A stretch of 20,134 bases of DNA. Origin: a virus. A program made the translations under genes and the position numbers. The DNA lies in IMG/VR virus record IMGVR_UViG_3300030060_003757, positions 1 through 20,134 of that record, one strand, 5' to 3'. The stretch's first letter is position 1, and each line of letters starts with the position of its first letter. Positions 4,435 through 17,266 of the stretch are shown here, piece by piece. A model generated the notes under the pieces. That model made no database searches. It saw only the letters and a list, made by a program, of their open reading frames with translations, and was not told the DNA's origin.

Positions 4435-4709
4435 TACTTAGATCTTTTTTCAGCAAAACCAGAAAAAGCATTATCTTTACTTTCTTCTTTTATTTTACCA
4501 TCAAGCATGTCTTGCTCTTCTTGTATTCTATTTAATATTTCAAAAGCATCAAATATAGCTAGTTTTTTTGTAGCAGCAGCGTTTTTTAATCTATCAGCAC
4601 TAATATCGTCTTCACTATCAACAATAGCTTCTTTAGCTACTTTTATTAATTCTTCAACCGCTTTGTGCCCAGCTTGGATTATATTCTTTTTCGTTTCCTT
4701 TACGCTCAT
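4434..4709 (-). CDS. Probable small terminase subunit (TerS)
   Basis: 91-residue, mostly helical, charged protein. The central segment ADRLKNAAATKKLAIFDAFE (residues 39-58) followed by ILNRIQEEQDML resembles the small terminases annotated in crAss-like and other marine phages, which assemble into a ring that recognises DNA and hands it to TerL. It sits directly before terL, with the TAATG stop-start overlap typical of terS-terL pairs. Its first 56 bases overlap the end of the GroES-like gene in another frame, an unusually long overlap for this window. The ATG at 4709 is the only N-terminal Met; no Shine-Dalgarno precedes it. No helix-turn-helix is obvious by eye. The assignment rests mainly on position, size and the central motif. 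Confidence 0.6.
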   Translation of the reverse strand: MSVKETKKNIIQAGHKAVEELIKVAKEAIVDSEDDISADRLKNAAATKKLAIFDAFEILNRIQEEQDMLDGKIKEESKDNAFSGFAEKRSK

Positions 4710-5244
4710 ATTTTATTTGTATTAAATTAGATTTTATTTTATAAAGAAGCTCGCCGTCTATAATAAACTCATGCTCAACGTTATTTCTAAAACCAACTAA
4801 ATCACCTGGTTTATGTTTTGCACTACAATATTTTATTACACCTACACAATGTTTTTCAGCATTTGTGCTATACACATTGTCGTTTTCTACAGGTTTTACA
4901 AAAGAATAATCATCTACAGCTTTCCACTTGTTGTCTCTTTTATATAAAAAAACACACTCTATAGGACAAACGTATTTATTTTCATTTATATAGAATCTAC
5001 TGTTCTGTAGTTTTCCTCTTACATCATATGATTTTCTAAAAATATTATGATGTATGATTATTTCATCACCAACTTTAATACTGGTTTTATAATGTTTTGG
5101 AACAGCTAACACAACAGCAGTTCTATTTATACTTTTATGCTCTTCAATACGAGTATTTATTATTAATTCCTTGTCACCTATTTTTTTAACATTATTGTAT
5201 CTATTACCGACAGGCTTTATAATAAAATCAAACAATCCTTTCAT
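4654..5244 (-). CDS. Tandem GroES-like (Cpn10) co-chaperonin
   Basis: 196-residue protein that I read as two GroES folds in one chain. Module 1 (about 1-102) has NRTAVVLAVPK (41-50) followed by IKVGDEIIIHHN (56-67), matching the GroES pattern of a G/A-x-V-L-A-V strand then K-V-G-D-x-V. Module 2 (about 112-180) has CVGVIKYCS, HKPGDLVGF (144-152) and EFIIDGELLYKIKSNLIQI (159-177), matching the GroES C-terminal half (KxGDxVxF, then IDGExLY-I and a final beta strand). The stretch THRIEEHKSIN-like at 30-40 is where the GroEL-binding mobile loop would fall; module 2 has little room for a loop. By analogy with T4 gp31 it may cap host GroEL during folding of virion proteins, but chaperonin binding is not shown. 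The start overlaps the SET gene by 17 bases. Confidence 0.6.
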   Translation of the reverse strand: MKGLFDFIIKPVGNRYNNVKKIGDKELIINTRIEEHKSINRTAVVLAVPKHYKTSIKVGDEIIIHHNIFRKSYDVRGKLQNSRFYINENKYVCPIECVFLYKRDNKWKAVDDYSFVKPVENDNVYSTNAEKHCVGVIKYCSAKHKPGDLVGFRNNVEHEFIIDGELLYKIKSNLIQIKYERKGNEKEYNPSWAQSG

Positions 5245-5599
5245 TTTCTAACGTGTGATGTCTATAGTTTACAAGTATTTCTGTGTTTTTAATTATGTTT
5301 TTTTCAGCTAACATAAGCAAATCTTTATTAGGAAGGTAATAAAACTTAGCGTTGTTATCGTCACTGTGATTAACATATCTACCTAATATTGTTTTACATT
5401 TATTATCTACACTTCCTAAGCCAATAATATCACCTTTTAATATATTTTTTTTTGAAAACACACCTTCACCGTGTATATTTGACTGTTTTTTATAATATAT
5501 ATCAGATGTAAATTCTAAAACCACACCATTGTTCGTTATAAAATTTAACTGATCCTGTGTTAAACCAAGATCTTTTAACATATCTTTATAACCCGTCAT
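5228..5599 (-). CDS. Miniature SET-domain protein
   Basis: 123-residue protein with the ordered motifs of a SET domain: IHGEGVFSKKNILKGDII (42-59, SET-N), GRYVNHSDDNNA (73-84, the NHSxxxN core that binds S-adenosylmethionine), and EILVNYR (107-113), equivalent to the ELxxDY motif with the catalytic Tyr (Tyr112) kept and Asp replaced by Asn. SET enzymes methylate protein lysines. Here the I-SET region between the motifs is very short and there is no post-SET cysteine cluster, so it is near the minimal size. Substrate is unknown: host protein, GroEL and virion protein are all possible. It starts at a TAATG overlap with the upstream 73-codon gene and ends inside the GroES-like gene, so the three are probably co-translated. 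Confidence 0.7.
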   Translation of the reverse strand: MTGYKDMLKDLGLTQDQLNFITNNGVVLEFTSDIYYKKQSNIHGEGVFSKKNILKGDIIGLGSVDNKCKTILGRYVNHSDDNNAKFYYLPNKDLLMLAEKNIIKNTEILVNYRHHTLENERIV

Positions 5600-6453: not shown

Positions 6454-7026
6454 CTATGGTTCGCCACGACCACCTCCGCCGCCTTCACCACCACCACTAC
6501 CAGCTGCTTGAGAAACAGTAGTGTTTCTTGTTGTAGAGCTATTAGAGCCATTAGGGTGTGCACCGTTTGTAGTACCAACATTTAACCTAACTGTTATAGT
6601 ACCACTTCTAGCGCCTCCGTTAGCACCATTTAATCCAACTGTATACGATATACTTCCGCTGCCAGATCTAGGGTTACCGCTAGTACCACCTTGCTGTGTT
6701 GATATTGTAACCCAACTTGGTTTTGATGATACATACCACGTTGAGTATGTTCTATGAGATACTGATATTGTAGCAGTACCACCACTAGAACTAAAAGAAG
6801 CAGAACCAGGTGATGTTGAAACACTTGTTGGTGAGTGTTGATAACTATACCACTCGCTTAAGGCGTGAGGAGCAGAGTTATCAGGCTTGTTAGCATTTAA
6901 ATTACTAATATTTATAGTTTCATACTGACTAGTAGCCGCGTCTTTTAACGAAAAGTCATCATCATCGTTGTCTATCTCATCTCGTATGTCCTGCATACTT
7001 ATCTGTCCGCTTGTTTGTATTGGCAT
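6454..7026 (-). CDS. Tail protein with BACON-like beta-sandwich domain
   Basis: 190 residues in three parts. Residues 1-60 (MPIQTSGQISMQDIRDEID and SLKDAATSQYETINIS) match the small N-terminal module common in phage tail-fibre-like proteins (SGxIS-x-DI-x-E). Residues about 74-175 follow the BACON pattern: SASFSSSGGTATISVS, TWYVSSKPSWVTIS, GSISYTV, ARSGTITV, and the closing NTTVSQAA. BACON domains are beta-sandwich modules thought to bind glycans or mucin; they are frequent in Bacteroidota proteins and known in crAssphage tail proteins. The protein ends in a flexible Gly-rich tail (SGGGEGGGGGRGEP). It is probably a minor tail or adhesion protein. The start overlaps the methyltransferase stop by one base (TAATG). 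No signal peptide, consistent with a virion protein. Confidence 0.7.
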   Translation of the reverse strand: MPIQTSGQISMQDIRDEIDNDDDDFSLKDAATSQYETINISNLNANKPDNSAPHALSEWYSYQHSPTSVSTSPGSASFSSSGGTATISVSHRTYSTWYVSSKPSWVTISTQQGGTSGNPRSGSGSISYTVGLNGANGGARSGTITVRLNVGTTNGAHPNGSNSSTTRNTTVSQAAGSGGGEGGGGGRGEP

Positions 7027-7601
7027 TATGAGTAATTTATTATTGGTATGTTATACTTATTTGAATTATAATATTTATTACTAGGTGGATTCACATCTAC
7101 TTCGTGATACTCTACATTTTCAAAACCTAAGTCTGTTGGCATGTTCCAATAAGTAAACTTACAGTTTGGTTTTCTAACAAGATCCACGTGAATTGGTAAC
7201 GCGTTTAAAAAATCATCACCATAAGTATCTTGTAAAATTGCATCAAACTTAGTTTGCATTAAAGGCATTTTATCTACCCACAAACCTTCTACAATAGTTA
7301 CGTTACTTTTATTACTTGCCCACTCTTGTAACTTAGGTATAATGTCCTTGTGACACTCTATAATTGTGTGAGATTTAGGTTTTCTAGCTTGTATGGCATC
7401 AGATAATATACCCATACCAAATCCTATTTCTAAAACGTCATCTCCTTCACTCACACATAATTCAGCCATCTTTTGCATAATAGGTGTTTCCCAACCCATC
7501 ATTACTTCATAGGTTTCGTTATGACTAGGATCTACCCAGTAAATTCCATTTTCATCAAATGTTAAATCTGATGCTCTATATCTCTCTGCAAAATTAGGCA
7601 T
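7026..7601 (-). CDS. GAMT/RMT2-like SAM-dependent methyltransferase
   Basis: 191 residues resembling guanidinoacetate N-methyltransferase and related arginine methyltransferases. Motifs in order: VMMGWETPIM (33-42; GAMT has WETPYM, whose Glu contacts the guanidino group), VLEIGFGMG (56-64, SAM-binding glycine motif I), IIEC (80-83, acidic end of strand 2 binding the SAM ribose), VEGLW (104-108), ILQDTY (122-127; GAMT ILYDTY, with the second guanidino-binding Asp), and CKFTYWN (147-153). It is shorter than GAMT (about 236 residues), mainly at the N-terminus. The chemistry suggested is methylation of a guanidino group, on a small molecule or an arginine. Its position between the giant fibre and a tail protein suggests modification of a virion component or host metabolite, but the substrate is unknown. 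It overlaps the fibre gene by 8 bases. Confidence 0.75.
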   Translation of the reverse strand: MPNFAERYRASDLTFDENGIYWVDPSHNETYEVMMGWETPIMQKMAELCVSEGDDVLEIGFGMGILSDAIQARKPKSHTIIECHKDIIPKLQEWASNKSNVTIVEGLWVDKMPLMQTKFDAILQDTYGDDFLNALPIHVDLVRKPNCKFTYWNMPTDLGFENVEYHEVDVNPPSNKYYNSNKYNIPIINYS

Positions 7602-10600
7602 TACAATTACAATTTTTACACTTGTTACACTTTTTCAACTCTTCAACTTCTTGAGTTAATTCTTTTACAGCTTCAATTAATATACCCACCACATTACCAT
7701 AAGCTACAGACTTCATACCTTCATCATCTGTTTTTACAACCTCTGGTAAAATCTTTTCTATTTCTTGAGCTATAACACCAATTGACTTTTTATCTTCACC
7801 TATCTTGTTAAATTCAACACCTCTAAGTTTATTTACTTTTTCTAGCGAGTTGTCAATTGTCTTAATATTTTCTTTTACTCTTTCATCAGAGTAAGCTATA
7901 ACATCACCAGTTGCTCTAATAGTTCCGTTAACATCTAATCTATAACTAGGTGTGCTATCTTTTATTCCAACGTTACCACTTTCATTAACAGTTAAAGTTT
8001 CTTGAGAGTTACCAGAACCACCCATATAAACTCTCCACCTGTCTGCATCACATCTTAATGTAGCTACAGATGTAGTACCATATTCCATTTGTTGACCTAT
8101 ATCAGAACTTGAATTTAAGTTACCAATAGTACTTGAAGCAGTAACAGAACCTGTTACAGATATACCCGCAGAGCTTGTTATTAATTTTTGACTTCCGTTA
8201 TAATGTAAGTTTGCATAACCATTTGAACCACCCCAACCAACACAAGTATGTAGTGATCCCATACTGCTTTCTGATTGTAAACTGTTGTTAGCACCGTGTT
8301 TATAGTTTCTTATAAAGTTATTTGTACCGTCATGATATATTCTAAAGTCAGCGTCGTTACCAAGTCTTATTTCTTTACTATCTTGCCACTCTGTATGACC
8401 ACTTACTGTGTCATCAGCATCGCTTCTTATATATTTACTTTGAGTAGATGAACTAGTTAAAAACCCAGAATCATTTGTTAAGTCTGAAGTAGCTGTTGGT
8501 ATTGTTGGCGTGCCTGACAAAGAACCGTAAGCACCATCAAAGTTAGAAGTACCAGCTCCAATATCAGCTAAAACTTGAGCACCTGTTCTGTATTTTATTT
8601 CGCCGCCATCAGAAACTAAAAACTTATCAAGATCCGATGTTGCGTTGGAAATAGATTCTATCTTGGCTTTAGATTTAATATGTAAATCATAAGTTGTACT
8701 TACCGCAGTACCGGCAAAAAACCCACCTTCAACTTTTACACTACCAGCCATTGTCCCAGCGTGATGTAATGTTATCTTAGCACTTCCACCTGTACCATTA
8801 ACTATTAAATCTTCACCGTCAATAGTTACATTATCTGTAAATGTTTTTTCTCCAGCTATTGTTTGATTACCTGTTAGTTTTACAGCAAACCCATCAACTT
8901 CAGTTTCTGTGTAATACCTACTATCATGATTATGTGATGAAGCGGCAAAGCCTGAAACGTTACTAGAGTGTATTGTACCAGCGTTTTCAGCTGTCCAGTC
9001 AATAATTTGATTACCTGATGGTATTGTAGTGTTACCTTCTAATGCAGTTCCTGAGGTTGTACCAAAACCAGGAAAACTTGTTATATTACTAATTGCAGTA
9101 GCATTTGTTGCTATTCCAGTAATATCTTGATCACCTGTGTTTGTACCAGATAAGTTTGGAGCAGATATACCAGTCTTTGTAATATTAAGAGCAGAAACTG
9201 TTGTTTCACCGTCATTACCACTTAGCTTAAATATATACTGACCAAAATTACCATTACCCTCACTACTAGTATCTTCTATGTAATCAAATTCTGCTACAGT
9301 ATCATTAACACCAATTTTCATTACTTGACTACTAGTACTACCACTTCTCGAAACATTTAAAGTGTCTGTGTTAGTATTAGTATCTATAACAACACCACCA
9401 TCAAACCTAACTGAACTATCAAAAGTTCCTCCATTTGCTTTTGAAACAAAAATTGTAGTATCTCCTTCTAGTGCAGTCCCCGAAGTTGTACCAAAACCAG
9501 GGAAACTAGTTACGTGTTGGGTAACACTTGACGAAGATATTCTTGCGTCGTCAAAAGTTCCTGAATTTATATCACTAGCAGCATGGTTATGTGATGCAGC
9601 TGCGTAACTACCGGAAGCTTGTGCTCCTAATTCTGCTAAAGTAGGTTTATGACCTTCGTGATATATTTCGTTACCTTCAATAGTAACTTTACCAGCAGCA
9701 GATCTAGCTATAGTAGTATCACTAGAATGACCTAAGTTTATAGCGCCTGCCGTAGTTATATTTCTATCGTAATCTAATAAGTTTGTATAATCAGTGTTTT
9801 CTAAACCAGAAAAGTTTGATGTTATAAATAAGTTTTGTAACGGTATTGTTTGATAACTAGAATTACTAGGTGACCAACCGTAATAATCAACTGTTATTCT
9901 AGTATTATAACCATTATTTGTAGCTGTTGTAGTACCGTTACCAGTATGTAAAGCACCATCTGCTTTAAACATTGTTCCCCAGTTTGTAACACCGTTGTTG
10001 TTTGAGTTTAAAGGTGTTTGAGCGTTATCTACAATACCACCAAAATCTGCGGTAACTTTAGTTGTCCAAGCGTATGTTTCAGGGGTTGTGCCCTGTGGGG
10101 TGTTTTCTTCTACTGTTATTGTTGAACCAGGGTATAAAGAACCTGTCCAGCTTAATTGTTGTCCAATTTTAGCTTGAAGTGGCCAAGGTGTTGAAGGTTT
10201 AACTTCAAATCTAAACTTATAATAAGTTGATGGTACAGCCCACGATGTATCTTGTCTACCATCTAATAATTTTTTAACATTTGATAACTGACTATCACCA
10301 TCTTGCCAAGAACTACCGTTCCAATACTCAACATTTTGTATAGCCGCATATCTAATAATATCTGCTCTAGCATTTTTAAGAAACATGCTTAAGTGTAAGC
10401 TTCCGTTGTAGCTATCAAAATAATAATTATCTTCAACTGTACCGTGATATAATCCAAAAGTAGTGCCATCAACAGTTAAGTTACCAGTTATAGTACCACC
10501 AGCTTTTGGTAAAGCAGCGTTAGCTGTAGTAGTTGTACTTGTTAATACACCGTCTCTTGTAGCTATATCTACTCCATCAACTGTACCTCCTACAGTTATG

Positions 10601-13600
10601 TTATTAGTAACGCCAAGTGAGGCAGAACTTAATGAACCAGTAAAAGAAGCCGCACCGCCTGATGTTATTTTAAATCTTTCAGTTGAACTAGAACCAGTAC
10701 CCATAGATATACCGTAATTATTTCCAGTACCATTAAATTGAAGATAACCCATCTCTGTGCTATCAATTTTCATTTGTAATCTTTTACCAGCGTTTGTCCA
10801 ATCAGTACCGTTTGCTGTTCTAACATCTCTAATAGTTAGTTTAGCATTATTATTTTGAGTACCTTTAAATATTGCATTATCAGATGTATTTCCACTAGTG
10901 TTACCTAAAGCGCCACCGTCAAATGTTATTACACCAGTAGCTGTATCATCAGCATCACTTCTTAAATACTTAGAATCTGTTTGTGTTGTTATATCAAATG
11001 AAGTTAAATAACTACCAGCAACTTGAGCACCTATATTTGTTCTAGCATTTGACTTTTGAGCGTTGGTTAATCCTTGATTATCTGTATCTACCCTAACTCT
11101 ATTACCTAGAGAATTTGTTACTGTAGTAGAAAATTCATCATCGTCATTTAACGCAGCCGCTAATTCATTTAACGTATTTAAATCACTAGGAGCTGAATCA
11201 ACTAAGTTTGCTACAGCAGTATCTACATAACTTTCAGTAGCATAACCAGATAAACTAGTAGCACCAGTAAGAACAGTTCCATTAGCAGTTACATTACCTG
11301 TAATTGTTAAATCGCCATCTTCTTCAAGTGTTAATAAAGTCCCACTTGTTCCAGTTCCATGTTTACCAATACTAAATGTAGAGGCTGAGTCGTTATTGTT
11401 ACTATCAATATTAATTCTAACTTTATCATACGAGTTAATAGTAATACTATCGCTATATGTTCCGTTATCTGTAGATGTTATACTATGATTAAGTTGAGTT
11501 CCATAAGTGTCACTATCCCAAGTTAAAAATAAACCACCAAATCTATATAAGTGAGAAAATGAATTATTTACAGCTCTACCGTAAATATGGTCACTAGTAA
11601 TTAACTCAGCAACATTTAAAGAGGTTGAGAACGTTTTAGCACCTGATATAGTTTGAGCACTAGCTTTTGTAACAAGTCCACTTAAATCTTGATCACCAGT
11701 AAGAACGGTTCCGTTAGCTGTTACAGTACCTGTAAAAGTTGCACTACCATCATGAGATATTGTTAATCTAGTTTGTGGTGAAGAGTCTGTAATTGTTGAT
11801 GTTTTAAATCTAAGTTCTGCATTAGGGCCTGAAGCTGCTGCTGTGTTACTAAAAGCTTCTACTTCTGCTAAAACTCTGGCACCAGGACTAGTTGTATCTG
11901 AACTATAAAATTCAATATTACCTAAACTAACGTTATCCCAATCACCATTATTTAAATTTCTTGAGTCTTGTATTCTTAATGTTGGAGCTGTTCCGTTTAG
12001 AATTACATCCCCTGCAAAAGTTGCAGATGAACTATTTAATACAAACCAGTTTTCACTTAACGGCGCTGTTGCTGAGTTATTATCTATTGCTCCAGTTTCA
12101 ACATCAGATCTACCAAGAGCAATAACATTATCTCCAATAAAAGCTATACCGTGGTCGTTACCACTATTACCAGGAGCCTTTAAATATACATAGTCTCCAG
12201 TATTAGCATACCAACCTTGATATAAAACATCATGAGTTGTTCCATTGCTCCAGCTATCAGCTACCTTTCTAAACAAAGCACCACCAGCTTTTGATACTAT
12301 TTCGTCGTGCATAGTTAAGGTACCTGATATATCTGCATTACCGTTAATATCTAAAGATGTTCCTTCTAGTTCTGTACCTTGTATTTTGCCATAAAAAGTA
12401 GCGCTTTTGTCAGAGTCTAAAAACAATACATTTTCTAAAGAAGATCCAGTGTAAAGCTGAAACTTCATTCTTGATTTCTTATCTGAACTTGTAAACGTAT
12501 TATCTGCTTCTACTAAAACAGTACCAACTGTTAAGTCACTTGTAACAACACTGTCTCTTGCCTTAAAATTTATTACACCAACATCGTCACCAGTAGCAAA
12601 GTTACCGCTACCATCATGATCTTTTCTTGTTGAAAGATCAAGAACAGCTTTACTTGTAGCATCAGTTTTTCTTACAGTAAAGTTACCATGAGATATTTGG
12701 CTACTTGGTAAAATTTCATGAACTAAACTACCATCTACTTTAAACTGTATTCTAGTAGAGTCAGCATCATTATCAGTATCAGCTTCTATATAAACATATG
12801 AGTTAGCTGCTCTAATTTTAAAATCTACATCATTAGTAGTATCAATGATTTGAATTCGAGGAGTATTAGCGTGAGTAATAGTTAAATCACCTGCAAAAGT
12901 ACCACCGTTTGCAGCAGATACAAAGTCTGTTGGTATTGTAGGTGTTCCAGATAAAGAGCCATAAGCACCATCAAAAGAAGTTCCACCAATAGCGCTTAAA
13001 AATTGTGCGGCACTTAAATAAGATAAAGTTTCATTCGCATTTATTCTTACATAAGAAGCAACGCTTACATCACCTAATTGAGCAAAAGCTGTACCAACTG
13101 TTGAAAACGTAGGTAAACCTGATATATCAACACCATCAACTGTGCCACTTACAGTTATATTCCCTTCTATAGTAACGTTACCAGCAGTGTCTTGTTTAAA
13201 AGCATCTGAATTAGCACTACTACCAATATTAAAATTACCAGAAGCGTCTTTCCATAACCTATGACTAGTAGCATTACTACTGGTAATAGCTATACCATTA
13301 CCATCACCATCACCATTTTGCCTTAAAACAAAAGCACCTGTAGTTGATACTCCAGTACCACCGTTAAGTTCTATAGCGCCTGTAGCCGTGCTTGTTGTAG
13401 TTATGTTGCCTGCAAAACTAACACTACCATCTCCGTTAAACGCATGTTTTATATTAGAACCAGGACTAGTACCTAATCCAAATTGTAAAGTAGCAGAATT
13501 GCTACCACCATTTCTTATATACCAAGCATTGTTATTGTTTGTGTTATCAAATATAACAGCTCCATTACCATCAATATTAATATGACTTGAATCAAGATTA

Positions 13601-14691
13601 ATAGCACCTGCAAAAGTTGCGTTTTGTGAACTATCTAATCTTAACGCTAAGGTTGGTGAGTTTGCAGAGGTTGAGTCTGTATAAAACTCTAAATAGCCGT
13701 TAGCTGTGTTACCAGTTTGATCAGTACCACCTTTTATAGCAGCTCTAGTTGTTTTGTAATAACTACTACCACTATAGTAGTTATCTGTAAAAGTTATTAT
13801 AGATCCCTTTTGATCTGTATCAGCTTCTAAATTATTATATAAATCTAAATGTGCATTGGTAGCAGAAAAAGAACCTTGTGCTGTGTGTGTAGAACTTTTT
13901 GTAACAGTATGCATACCAGAACTTATTGTTCCAATATTTTTTAAGTTTCTATTTAAATCTATAAACTGTGTATTACCACCGCTACCTATCCACAAACCAT
14001 TTGATGAAGCGTCTGTTCCTCCTGTATAAAATCTAAACTCTTGCCTTGCCGACCATCCACCAGACATATTATTAGGAAAACCAATAACTTTCATTCCACC
14101 CTCAGCTGAAACGATAACAGTTTCATCAGACTCATTAATATTGCTTCTTAAAGTGTTTCTAGTATCTCCACCGGCTATTATAACAGAATCATCATTACCA
14201 AGTAATAGGGCTGCGTTTTCTGATACTCTTTCTAAAATTGTTAATTCAGTACCATTTCTATCTACTTTTAATAAAGGAACAGAAGTTGTGCCCTCGTAAG
14301 CACCTGTATCGCCTGATGGCTCATAATCAAATAGTATATAACCATTTGTAGTACCAAACGTAAGCTTGCTGTTCATAGTTACAGCACCATTAAAATTAGG
14401 ATTTTCTAAATTTAAAGTTGTATTACTACCACCTAACGTAAGTGTTACTGCGCTACCATCACCTTTTATAGCGCCTGATTGTTCAAATATAATATCTACG
14501 TTATTCGTACCATCACCAATAAAAACATCAGACGAACCATCACCTAATAAAATATCTCCAGCTGTATTATTAAAAACTAAATTACCATTACTATCAGTAT
14601 CAATAGTACCAGCGTTAGCACCAGCGTCAGTCGTAAACTGTATCTTATTTCCTTTCTTTAATATTATATCACTTAAAAATGGTATTGACAT
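7594..14691 (-). CDS. Giant tail fibre with C-terminal S74 intramolecular chaperone
   Basis: 2365-residue fibre. The N-terminal ~120 residues (IPFLSDIILKKGNKIQF, then Gly/Asn/Asp-rich short strands) look like a beta-helix anchor. Most of the chain is built from repeated fibre modules: at least seven variants of ATFAG-x-I/V, two copies of DGAYGSLSGTPTIPT, two of TSFPGFGTTSGTALEG, two of YxRSDADDT, two of TVDGVDI, and SHNH motifs like the HxH metal-binding sites of T4 gp37. A non-repetitive block encoded at about 9720-10440 (LLDGRQDTSW, then WPLQAKIGQQLSWTGSLYPG) may be a globular ligand-binding domain. The C-terminus (from Ser2268) is a Peptidase_S74 domain: SDERVKENI, SIGVIAQEIEKILPEVV, VAYGNVVGILIEAVKEL. 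These domains trimerise fibres and then cleave themselves off just before the Ser. A Cys-rich tail follows. The gene is intact; it likely binds the host surface. Confidence 0.9.
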   Translation of the reverse strand: MSIPFLSDIILKKGNKIQFTTDAGANAGTIDTDSNGNLVFNNTAGDILLGDGSSDVFIGDGTNNVDIIFEQSGAIKGDGSAVTLTLGGSNTTLNLENPNFNGAVTMNSKLTFGTTNGYILFDYEPSGDTGAYEGTTSVPLLKVDRNGTELTILERVSENAALLLGNDDSVIIAGGDTRNTLRSNINESDETVIVSAEGGMKVIGFPNNMSGGWSARQEFRFYTGGTDASSNGLWIGSGGNTQFIDLNRNLKNIGTISSGMHTVTKSSTHTAQGSFSATNAHLDLYNNLEADTDQKGSIITFTDNYYSGSSYYKTTRAAIKGGTDQTGNTANGYLEFYTDSTSANSPTLALRLDSSQNATFAGAINLDSSHINIDGNGAVIFDNTNNNNAWYIRNGGSNSATLQFGLGTSPGSNIKHAFNGDGSVSFAGNITTTSTATGAIELNGGTGVSTTGAFVLRQNGDGDGNGIAITSSNATSHRLWKDASGNFNIGSSANSDAFKQDTAGNVTIEGNITVSGTVDGVDISGLPTFSTVGTAFAQLGDVSVASYVRINANETLSYLSAAQFLSAIGGTSFDGAYGSLSGTPTIPTDFVSAANGGTFAGDLTITHANTPRIQIIDTTNDVDFKIRAANSYVYIEADTDNDADSTRIQFKVDGSLVHEILPSSQISHGNFTVRKTDATSKAVLDLSTRKDHDGSGNFATGDDVGVINFKARDSVVTSDLTVGTVLVEADNTFTSSDKKSRMKFQLYTGSSLENVLFLDSDKSATFYGKIQGTELEGTSLDINGNADISGTLTMHDEIVSKAGGALFRKVADSWSNGTTHDVLYQGWYANTGDYVYLKAPGNSGNDHGIAFIGDNVIALGRSDVETGAIDNNSATAPLSENWFVLNSSSATFAGDVILNGTAPTLRIQDSRNLNNGDWDNVSLGNIEFYSSDTTSPGARVLAEVEAFSNTAAASGPNAELRFKTSTITDSSPQTRLTISHDGSATFTGTVTANGTVLTGDQDLSGLVTKASAQTISGAKTFSTSLNVAELITSDHIYGRAVNNSFSHLYRFGGLFLTWDSDTYGTQLNHSITSTDNGTYSDSITINSYDKVRINIDSNNNDSASTFSIGKHGTGTSGTLLTLEEDGDLTITGNVTANGTVLTGATSLSGYATESYVDTAVANLVDSAPSDLNTLNELAAALNDDDEFSTTVTNSLGNRVRVDTDNQGLTNAQKSNARTNIGAQVAGSYLTSFDITTQTDSKYLRSDADDTATGVITFDGGALGNTSGNTSDNAIFKGTQNNNAKLTIRDVRTANGTDWTNAGKRLQMKIDSTEMGYLQFNGTGNNYGISMGTGSSSTERFKITSGGAASFTGSLSSASLGVTNNITVGGTVDGVDIATRDGVLTSTTTTANAALPKAGGTITGNLTVDGTTFGLYHGTVEDNYYFDSYNGSLHLSMFLKNARADIIRYAAIQNVEYWNGSSWQDGDSQLSNVKKLLDGRQDTSWAVPSTYYKFRFEVKPSTPWPLQAKIGQQLSWTGSLYPGSTITVEENTPQGTTPETYAWTTKVTADFGGIVDNAQTPLNSNNNGVTNWGTMFKADGALHTGNGTTTATNNGYNTRITVDYYGWSPSNSSYQTIPLQNLFITSNFSGLENTDYTNLLDYDRNITTAGAINLGHSSDTTIARSAAGKVTIEGNEIYHEGHKPTLAELGAQASGSYAAASHNHAASDINSGTFDDARISSSSVTQHVTSFPGFGTTSGTALEGDTTIFVSKANGGTFDSSVRFDGGVVIDTNTNTDTLNVSRSGSTSSQVMKIGVNDTVAEFDYIEDTSSEGNGNFGQYIFKLSGNDGETTVSALNITKTGISAPNLSGTNTGDQDITGIATNATAISNITSFPGFGTTSGTALEGNTTIPSGNQIIDWTAENAGTIHSSNVSGFAASSHNHDSRYYTETEVDGFAVKLTGNQTIAGEKTFTDNVTIDGEDLIVNGTGGSAKITLHHAGTMAGSVKVEGGFFAGTAVSTTYDLHIKSKAKIESISNATSDLDKFLVSDGGEIKYRTGAQVLADIGAGTSNFDGAYGSLSGTPTIPTATSDLTNDSGFLTSSSTQSKYIRSDADDTVSGHTEWQDSKEIRLGNDADFRIYHDGTNNFIRNYKHGANNSLQSESSMGSLHTCVGWGGSNGYANLHYNGSQKLITSSAGISVTGSVTASSTIGNLNSSSDIGQQMEYGTTSVATLRCDADRWRVYMGGSGNSQETLTVNESGNVGIKDSTPSYRLDVNGTIRATGDVIAYSDERVKENIKTIDNSLEKVNKLRGVEFNKIGEDKKSIGVIAQEIEKILPEVVKTDDEGMKSVAYGNVVGILIEAVKELTQEVEELKKCNKCKNCNCNA
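7597..7890 (-). other. Peptidase_S74 self-cleaving chaperone domain with Cys-rich tail
   Basis: Encodes the last 98 residues of the giant fibre, from Ser2268 in YSDERVKENI. By analogy with endosialidase and T5/K1F fibre chaperone domains, the peptide bond before this Ser is the predicted autocleavage site, with the Ser-Asp pair as nucleophile region. The chain then has the conserved GVEFN, IGVIAQEIE and VAYGNVVGILIEAVKEL segments and a terminal coiled coil. It ends with ELKKCNKCKNCNCNA, four cysteines spaced C-x2-C-x2-C-x-C, which is not part of the usual family ending as I know it. Confidence 0.8.
8495..8541 (-). repeat. Fibre repeat, copy 1 (encodes DGAYGSLSGTPTIPT)
   Basis: 47 bases matching 12929-12975 at 40 positions. 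The seven differences fall only at every third base, so both copies encode the same 15 residues. This is a protein-level repeat kept by selection inside the giant fibre. Confidence 0.8.
9021..9084 (-). repeat. Fibre repeat, copy 1 (encodes TSFPGFGTTSGTALEG)
   Basis: Matches the segment at 9452-9512, about 430 bases away. The shared 16 residues are identical at the protein level while the DNA differs at scattered silent positions. It marks a duplicated fibre module. Confidence 0.75.
9452..9512 (-). repeat. Fibre repeat, copy 2 (encodes TSFPGFGTTSGTALEG)
   Basis: Second copy of the module at 9021-9084, lying just before the SHNH-containing segment of the giant fibre in protein order. Residues flanking the shared core differ (GDTTIF here, GNTTIP in the other copy). 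Confidence 0.75.
12929..12975 (-). repeat. Fibre repeat, copy 2 (encodes DGAYGSLSGTPTIPT)
   Basis: Partner of 8495-8541, more than 4 kb away in the same gene and encoding the identical peptide. In both copies the peptide follows an LxxIGxxxFDGAYG-type context, so the repeated unit is larger than the exact match. Confidence 0.8.
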
Positions 14692-14701
14692 GTCTTATAT
14701 T

Positions 14702-17266
14702 TTAAATTCTTCCTGATATTCTTTTTCTACTCACAGTGCTTTGTACTTTAGCTCTTGAGTCTTGTATTCTTGTTTTAGGTCTAGCACCTGTAAAAACTAC
14801 TCTTATATCTCTTACATACATTGGGCCTTCTTCTTGCGCATCTGAGTCTGGCGCATAAAAAGCTATTAATTCATAACCGTATTTTTGAGCAGCTATAGAT
14901 AACGATTTTTCTTGCCAAGCACCTAAAGATCCACTATCAAATCTTACTTGTTGTCTAAAGCAATAAAAATTACTATTTACAACTTTAGCATCACTACTAT
15001 CTAAATAACTTGTTTCATTTGTATAACCAGAGGTGTATCGCCCATGCGCGTTATTATTGTTTGTATAAGCGACTAAATATGGCATATTCCAACCACTTTG
15101 ACTTGTAGGTCCTCTAAATTCACCTTTTACTGTTACAGCTGTATTTGGTGGTATGTATGTAACTACTTTTGCTAAAGGGTAATGTTCAGTTCTACCGTTA
15201 GCTATAGTCCAATTAGTTTCACCGTTTTTTCTAAATATTAAGTGACCACCTTCTAAAAGAGCCTCTGTTCCTTCTTCAAAGTTAAAATCTATAAATTGCA
15301 CGTTTTGCCAGTGGGCTCCACCTCTTTCCCAAGTGTTTCTACCTTCTGGCCCGCCACTACCATAGCTATAATCATTAGCATCAACAGCACCAGTGTTGTT
15401 TGTGTAACCACTATATATTTCTGGTATTTCTTTATACCATTTTGGATTAAAATACGAATCTATAAATTTAATACCACCTGATCCAACTCCGTTATAAATC
15501 ATTGTTCTAAATCCTTCAAAAAACCATCTTCTAAAGTTTTGGCCTGGTGGAGAATAGTAATGGTAAAAAGGTCTGTTTTCACTATTAAGAACTATATTGT
15601 TATGTATAGGTGTTATATCTCTATTGTGGTGAAAAAACCAAGCATAATCATCAGATCTTGTTCCGTAATTGTATGCAACTTCACAAGCCATGTCATAAAA
15701 AGCATCTGTGTAAAAATTAGTATAATGATTTCTAGTAGCATAATTATTTACAAGCTGCATATCCATATGTGAAGACCAACACCAGGTACCTGCCCATCCA
15801 TTGTTTACTAATACAGAGTTTCTATGAACAAAACTATGTGGATGTCTAGTATGTAACCCAGTATAACTTTGGCTAGGATTATTATTATTCCAACAAACAT
15901 TGTTTTCATATCTACTTTGACAATCGTATCTAGAGTCTGTAGTATAATCATTTTCTCTATATCTACTATTATAACCAGCTGTAAAACAAGAAGCTCTGTA
16001 ATATGTATTATTAGTATTACCACCCATTTGTTTCCACTCAACATTTTTTAATACTATTTCTCTAGTACTTGCTCTACTATAATCAGTATAATACTCTACA
16101 TAACAATACGCTCTAACATCTGTGTCTACACCGTATATTTGTATTGGTCTTGTAAGTTTTTGCACTAAACTACCAACTTTTCTAACATTACCTATAGCTG
16201 GGCTAACTGTTAGTGTATTACCACTTTTACCGGTTATTTCATAAGATGAATTATAATCCCAATTAGTATCGGTATCATTGTTAACATCTATATTTATATA
16301 ATCACCTACATCAAAATTAGTTGAATTACCTATAGTTACTGTTGTATCATTTACAGCTGCAGCACTTGTTAATGTTGTTGCGTTTTGTCTAACGTGACAC
16401 CCTCCTGAGTGGTGTATTTTATCAAAACCAGTTTCAAATACTTCTGTACCACTTGATATAGTACCAGATATACTAGAGTCTAAAGTTAATGTTTTTGTGT
16501 TGTGATTTATTGCGGTTATTTCTTTTACATTTCTGTTGCTTCCTGTTCCGAATATAATTTTGTAGCCTACTCTGAATATTTTAGTGTAATCAACAACTAA
16601 AGAAGTACCGCTGGCAGAAGAAACTATTGCCTTGGGGCCTACAAATTTTCTTATATATATTCTTTTGTTTGATGTATCAATATCATGAATCCAAGCCCCT
16701 TCATCACCTCTAACTCTATAGTCTTGATCTGTTGAGTGATAAATGGCAATCCAATCTCCTATAGCAAAACCAGTTGTACTAGCTACATGAACATAAGCGT
16801 CTTCAACTGCTACCGCAGACGCGGTATTAGTTATAGTAACATTATCATCACCCATAAACTTCCAAGATGAATAAGTAACATTTTCTATCCATATACCATG
16901 CTGATCATCATTATTACCTTCAAACTCTAGTCTTATATTATTACCTGTTGCAGATAATAAAGCTCCAGATGAACTACCACCTTCAGTAAAGTCTTGTGCA
17001 GAGACACCATCAGTTTTAGAATAATCAGTAGACCCATTACCTTGTACTGTAATTCTACCGTTTATTCTAATTTTACCATTAGTTGCAAAATGTAAATTAC
17101 CTCTAACAGATATATCACCAAAACCAGTACCAGCTCTTAAATCAGAGTTTATTGTTACTTTATGTCCTTGTGAAATAGTAAATGTGTCTCCGTCAGCTGG
17201 AGTTGAACCTCCCCATGTTTGTGAACTAGTCCAATTTCCAGATGCGCTACTAGTTAAGTTCGCCAT
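14702..17266 (-). CDS. G8-domain beta-helix tail spike-like protein
   Basis: 854 residues. The N-terminus (about 10-76) is a G8-type domain: GNWTSSQTWGGSTPADGDTF, ISQGHKVTIN, DISVRGNLHF, KIRINGRITVQG. G8 domains occur in CEMIP/TMEM2-like and other sugar-associated beta-helix proteins. Then come strand-rich segments (TGFAIGDWIAIYHS, NFDVGDYINIDV) and a middle region encoded around 15530-15900 that is unusually rich in Asn, Tyr, His and Trp (HTRHPHSFVHRNSVLVNNGW, AGTWCWSSHMDMQLVNN), with regular NNxxxx turns typical of a right-handed parallel beta-helix. A jelly-roll-like stretch (YPLAKVVTYIPPNTAVTVKG, then EKSLSIAAQKYGYELIAFYA) and a basic tail (SRKRISGRI) end it. A polysaccharide-binding or -cleaving spike is likely; no catalytic residues can be assigned. 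It starts inside the upstream 62-residue gene. Confidence 0.8.
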   Translation of the reverse strand: MANLTSSASGNWTSSQTWGGSTPADGDTFTISQGHKVTINSDLRAGTGFGDISVRGNLHFATNGKIRINGRITVQGNGSTDYSKTDGVSAQDFTEGGSSSGALLSATGNNIRLEFEGNNDDQHGIWIENVTYSSWKFMGDDNVTITNTASAVAVEDAYVHVASTTGFAIGDWIAIYHSTDQDYRVRGDEGAWIHDIDTSNKRIYIRKFVGPKAIVSSASGTSLVVDYTKIFRVGYKIIFGTGSNRNVKEITAINHNTKTLTLDSSISGTISSGTEVFETGFDKIHHSGGCHVRQNATTLTSAAAVNDTTVTIGNSTNFDVGDYINIDVNNDTDTNWDYNSSYEITGKSGNTLTVSPAIGNVRKVGSLVQKLTRPIQIYGVDTDVRAYCYVEYYTDYSRASTREIVLKNVEWKQMGGNTNNTYYRASCFTAGYNSRYRENDYTTDSRYDCQSRYENNVCWNNNNPSQSYTGLHTRHPHSFVHRNSVLVNNGWAGTWCWSSHMDMQLVNNYATRNHYTNFYTDAFYDMACEVAYNYGTRSDDYAWFFHHNRDITPIHNNIVLNSENRPFYHYYSPPGQNFRRWFFEGFRTMIYNGVGSGGIKFIDSYFNPKWYKEIPEIYSGYTNNTGAVDANDYSYGSGGPEGRNTWERGGAHWQNVQFIDFNFEEGTEALLEGGHLIFRKNGETNWTIANGRTEHYPLAKVVTYIPPNTAVTVKGEFRGPTSQSGWNMPYLVAYTNNNNAHGRYTSGYTNETSYLDSSDAKVVNSNFYCFRQQVRFDSGSLGAWQEKSLSIAAQKYGYELIAFYAPDSDAQEEGPMYVRDIRVVFTGARPKTRIQDSRAKVQSTVSRKRISGRI

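Follow-up and report, generated by a model that had tools for sequence, protein, structure and literature searches.

A putative protein-arginine methyltransferase of the GAMT family and its candidate target arginine in the tail gene cluster of a marine phage

The window analysed here is a virus fragment of 20,134 bases from a marine phage (IMG/VR record IMGVR_UViG_3300030060_003757), with a structural gene cluster on the minus strand. Identification by ORF, Pfam and PHROGs searches revealed a tail fibre protein of 2365 amino acids (7594..14691, minus strand), which bears at its C-terminus a Peptidase_S74 intramolecular chaperone domain (residues 2268-2320, 7732..7890, minus strand; E-value 5.6e-16 in Pfam). 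Its gene overlaps by 8 bases that of a methyltransferase of 191 amino acids plus stop (7026..7601, minus strand), which in turn shares one base with the gene for a small, 190-amino acid tail protein (6454..7026, minus strand). Domain search and tail analysis divide this last protein into an N-terminal segment, which is common to tail proteins with other C-termini, a BACON-like beta domain (approximately residues 70-173) matched weakly and under the Pfam cut-off (E-value 2.7e-3), and a glycine-rich C-terminal tail predicted to be disordered. The tail carries a GRG motif (G186-R187-G188; 6463..6471, minus strand), R187 being the proposed methylation site. The gene order is thus S74 tail fibre, enzyme and BACON-like protein, beyond which lie small genes, a GroES-like gene and the large terminase gene. 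The tail-fibre cluster described in the original prediction, made from the sequence alone, was therefore recovered, with a weak match for its BACON-like member. The open reading frame of the enzyme was exactly as predicted, and it contains WETPIM, VLEIGFGMG, IIEC, GLW and ILQDTY in the order given.

Other genes of the window deserve mention. The GroES-like co-chaperonin (4654-5244, minus strand; phrog_13932, E-value 5.5e-24) is encoded near the large terminase gene. Between it and the small genes lies a gene coding for a 123-amino acid SET-domain protein (5228-5599, minus strand; PF00856, E-value 2.1e-8), a possible lysine methyltransferase that was found in the window and in no other fetched locus. 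An 854-amino acid protein (14702-17266, minus strand), with a weak match to the G8 domain and a weak match to a K1-lyase rider, is probably another tail adhesin or depolymerase. A near-identity search of the whole window against the phage collection returned no match.

The 191-amino acid gene product belongs to the family of guanidinoacetate methyltransferase (GAMT), which is its closest relative by sequence, profile and predicted fold. A phmmer search against all PDB chains retrieved four GAMT sequences with E-values of 1.5e-18 to 7.9e-18, the next family being RsmA at 1.3e-3. With a profile built from 24 members, GAMT was matched at 1.2e-25 and the next family at 1.4e-3. The AlphaFold2 model of the enzyme (pLDDT 93.4) had GAMT structures as its best five PDB matches (E-values of 1.0e-12 to 2.2e-10), the next family following at 2.1e-7. 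Family libraries overlook this enzyme: Pfam and NCBIfam gave only generic or sub-cutoff methyltransferase matches (RrnaAD/RsmA and generic families), and PHROGs gave no match.

The residues expected to hold a guanidino group are also conserved. E38 of the WE motif (codon at 7488..7490, minus strand) and D125 of the DTY motif (codon at 7227..7229, minus strand) correspond in the alignment to Glu45 and Asp134 of rat GAMT. The former is the guanidino-binding glutamate, and Asp134 acts as the proton acceptor that abstracts the substrate proton (PMC12842229). Both acids are invariant in a 22-row alignment that includes human GAMT (its sequence was checked and is identical to 3ORH), as well as in 38 phage rows (37 phage relatives), which bears out the original prediction on this point. 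Residues invariant with human GAMT are V33, M34, W37, E38, M42, L57, E58, G60, G62, E82, D120, D125 and Y177. The enzyme contains the SAM-site motif GFGM(G/A) and the acidic residue closing strand 2 (IIE), and conservation at its SAM site (GFGMG, E82) equals that of the two guanidino acids. Approximately 30 GAMT residues located before the last strands, including the Leu170-Thr171 region, are absent from the phage proteins in the alignment. The missing stretch lies, we presume, near the site holding the guanidinoacetate carboxylate, and we take the Leu170-Thr171 segment and the following helices to close on this carboxylate. The N-terminus of the enzyme (about 32 residues) gave no convincing alignment to the GAMT lid (residues 1-42), which closes over the small substrate.

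Scans of viral contigs identified 76 enzyme loci. The phage collection contained one, in a phage of 634,780 bases, whose enzyme has 42% identity and adjoins structural genes. In this huge unannotated phage (LR745206.1), three large fibre-like genes immediately precede the GAMT-like gene. One candidate, L084, was rejected as a TrmB-like false match. In the tree, a main phage clade, which includes both the window and the huge phage, stands beside a more distant viral set (L068-L078). Throughout the main clade the enzyme gene is preceded, on its own strand, by a gene for a fibre or another large structural protein; of 48 such C-termini, 11 carry an S74 domain and some others a different phage C-terminal domain. 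Most downstream genes encode either a BACON-like protein, as in the window, or a CBM96-like beta-sandwich. The enzymes of the distant set lie outside fibre clusters, several of them beside 2OG-Fe(II) oxygenases, and retain VMM.WE and the catalytic Asp. Cellular relatives of the enzyme exist as well.

Two loci encode GAMT-like enzymes fused to a C-terminal Hint/intein-like domain, recognised by weak Pfam matches (L020, 9992-11044; L021, 9977-11026). These fusions are flanked by Ser/Thr repeat proteins of 576-722 amino acids, one of which ends in GGGGGGGGCGRGCQ and one in GGCMRGCI. At L187 (3518-4129), a GAMT-like relative in which both guanidino acids are lost is encoded downstream of a tail protein that shares the N-terminal segment; this neighbour has no RG tail.

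The BACON type lends itself to a presence/absence test, as the enzyme gene is present or absent at the same place in different phages. The alignments used to search for BACON homologues omitted the glycine-rich tail, and unique proteins were counted (L103, L104, L106 and L113, for which no upstream sequence was available, were excluded). The contrast rests on IMG/VR contigs, the phage collection containing no BACON homologues. When preceded by the enzyme gene, 22/22 BACON homologues have an RG in the glycine-rich tail (GRG in 21, LRG in 1); 20 of them come from the main set, and the other two are L218 and L284. Where the fibre gene abuts the BACON gene and the enzyme is missing, none of the eight tails has an RG. 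These results give specific support to the original suggestion that the neighbouring BACON-domain protein is methylated. The enzyme was not found elsewhere in the records of the eight enzyme-less loci; as these are fragments (4.5-65 kb), it may lie elsewhere in the genomes. All 21 tabulated tails accompanied by the enzyme contain a single Arg and lack Lys, and the glycine content of the tails is equal in both groups (0.49 vs 0.51). Two members of the enzyme-bearing group were blind cases: L218 has a GRG and only 54 upstream bases, which encode the C-terminus of the enzyme, and L284, found later, has both enzyme and GRG.

Close relatives illustrate the contrast. L101 has neither enzyme nor RG, and its domain is 77-79% identical to those of the enzyme-bearing L012, L016 and L102. 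The tail EGLGDGGGEDP of L143, without enzyme, is similar to EGLRGGDGLP of L017, with enzyme, except that the arginine is gone. In enzyme-less L105 a lysine lies within the glycine tail (GGGKGGGG); the idea that a SET-domain gene takes over at this lysine tail was dropped, there being no SET gene in the L105 locus. In a tree of the BACON proteins from which the tails were omitted, enzyme presence must have changed four times, on well-supported branches. Four changes are likewise required for the tail motif, which moves with the enzyme in 4/4 independent pairs. A sign test on these four independent contrasts gives p = 0.125, a sample for which significance is unreachable, and Fisher's test on 21/0 vs 0/8 gives 2.3e-7, a value uncorrected for relatedness.

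A dedicated arginine motif that changes with the enzyme was seen in the BACON type only. Among CBM96-like downstream proteins, GRG was present in 51/53 with the enzyme and in 7/10 without it (p = 0.025). Since GRG is kept in these seven enzyme-less cases, the motif is there independent of the enzyme and is largely a property of the CBM96-like family, which makes the substrate in this type less clear. These proteins (L041, L030, L025 and relatives) have 210-245 amino acids and a strongly conserved GRGGGT(F/Y)R..R.F near the N-terminus, mostly retained without the enzyme. Counted over all types, GRG occurs in 51/56 genes downstream of the enzyme and in 21/436 others, a ratio inflated by two homologous families; given this and the 7/10 enzyme-less CBM96-like proteins with GRG, the enrichment was rejected as proof. 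No RG neighbour was seen in the 635-kb phage or at L060.

The reading that we favour, with a probability of roughly 0.6, is that the enzyme is a GAMT-family protein-arginine methyltransferase dedicated to one arginine of the small tail protein. A SAM-dependent methyltransferase would thus be produced from a gene set between, and overlapping, those of the fibre and of the small tail protein. It would bind the C-terminal tail of the latter; flexible and rich in glycine, this tail, predicted to be disordered, could reach the active site, where E38 and D125 would hold and deprotonate the guanidino group of the single arginine (GRG, R187). A methyl group would then pass from SAM to a guanidino nitrogen of R187; we infer the use of SAM, the transfer and both the site and the degree of methylation. 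The pairing at L187, where an enzyme relative lacking either acid has a neighbour without the motif, fits this proposal. Alternatively, the RG motif may serve for enzyme binding instead of methylation. A location at the tip of the fibre, comparable to that of gp38 in T2-type phages, is probable for the small protein. The virion would then expose the methylated arginine, with possible effects on receptor binding, assembly or stability. The fuller account, in which a phage protein-arginine methyltransferase akin to a creatine-synthesis enzyme acts on one arginine of the neighbouring tail-tip protein and is gained and lost together with its target, has in our judgement slightly better than even odds.

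Other readings of the locus were weighed against this one. That the enzyme is a generic class I methyltransferase, acting on rRNA or otherwise and resembling GAMT by convergence, could be drawn from the Pfam and NCBIfam assignments mentioned above. It is hardly credible, given that the E-value of GAMT is better by some 15 orders of magnitude in the single-sequence search and by more than 20 in the profile search, that GAMT ranks first in fold and that both guanidino acids are invariant. The closest matches proved not to be generic methyltransferases devoid of the two acids, the outcome that would have spoken against the original prediction. A small-molecule guanidino methyltransferase, acting on guanidinoacetate, arginine, agmatine or a similar host metabolite and located in the tail cluster by chance or through module exchange, is a more serious but still unlikely possibility. 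The closest characterised relatives use guanidinoacetate, which could come from the host, and the cellular relatives as well as the second viral set outside fibre clusters agree with such a role. On the other hand, structural-gene linkage is maintained throughout the main clade, the roughly 30 GAMT residues near the presumed carboxylate site are missing, and a metabolite role gives no prediction of the co-occurrence with a tail arginine. An amidinotransferase (PF02274) was detected in 0/16 enzyme-bearing records, most of which are fragments, with control genomes positive. The host-metabolite role, also suggested in the original prediction, thus gained no support.

The enzyme may instead act on another residue or partner of the tail module, such as the long fibre, or bind the RG tail as a non-methylating assembly factor, a reading which we likewise hold to be unlikely. 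Binding of arginine by the two acids need not entail catalysis, the constant upstream neighbours are large structural proteins, and among CBM96-like proteins the motif does not follow the enzyme. The conservation of the SAM-site residues, equal to that of the acids, argues against this reading, and apart from the single tail arginine no feature was seen to vary with the enzyme. Less probable again is that the enzyme is mobile cargo of a variable tail region, the link with the motif reflecting co-transfer of enzyme and BACON genes as a block. Such a history would agree with the presence or absence of the enzyme at one fixed site and with the small number (four) of independent contrasts. The motif, however, lies at the far (3') end of the BACON gene relative to the enzyme gene. 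Enzyme-less BACON proteins are moreover interspersed with enzyme-bearing ones (L101 inside the L012/L016 group, L095 beside L005/L006), so that the domain is not split in two types.

If a dedicated protein-arginine methyltransferase is indeed encoded here, a phage would bring its own enzyme for one residue of its receptor-binding apparatus, and GAMT-type enzymes would extend to a viral protein substrate. Post-translational modification of the tail tip would then become a variable in marine phage-host recognition. The pair of one enzyme and one arginine is directly testable in E. coli. The open-access literature searched yielded no description of a phage GAMT or of an arginine methyltransferase encoded by a phage.

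Among known systems, GAMT itself (rat 1XCJ, 1KHH and 1P1B; human 3ORH) resembles the phage proteins in sequence, profile and fold, with common WE and DTY acids, GFGM and IIE SAM-site motifs and a C-terminal PP...YY segment. The phage versions differ in their size (mostly 185-220 amino acids vs 236 in human GAMT), in the lack of about 30 residues before the last strands, in a short N-terminus that does not convincingly align to the lid, and in being encoded within tail clusters. RMT2, the fungal delta-N-arginine methyltransferase, is related to GAMT and methylates a protein arginine, acting on ribosomal protein L12. Protein-arginine methylation is also the function proposed here. In class I PRMTs (PRMT1 and relatives), the classical substrate context is an RG in a disordered Gly-rich tail, as in the present proposal. 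The 191-amino acid enzyme is too short for the PRMT beta-barrel and its fold is nearest to GAMT; the PRMT family was not matched in Pfam or NCBIfam and only once in PDB (profile, E-value 0.47).

For the target, the nearest parallel is gp38 of T2-type phages, whose gene directly follows the fibre gene. We know of no modifying enzyme for gp38. It is a tip protein on a gp37-type fibre with glycine-rich parts (PMC12892980), as is proposed for the small tail protein, and it folds as a polyglycine II lattice, whereas the latter is BACON-like. This gp38-like position and plan, with an N-terminal segment joined to varied C-termini and a glycine-rich part, makes an exposed fibre-tip residue possible. 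Finally, virion proteins of Cellulophaga phages carry methylated Lys and Arg (PMC13288928). The same study, of 2026, is the first report of methylated phage proteins, among them a tail fibre with methyl-arginine in free virions; these marine phages are not known to encode methyltransferases, and its authors invoke host enzymes (PMC13288928). The marine setting and a methyl-arginine on the tail apparatus would be common to both systems, with the modification ascribed to the host in Cellulophaga phages and to a phage-encoded enzyme in the proposal made here.
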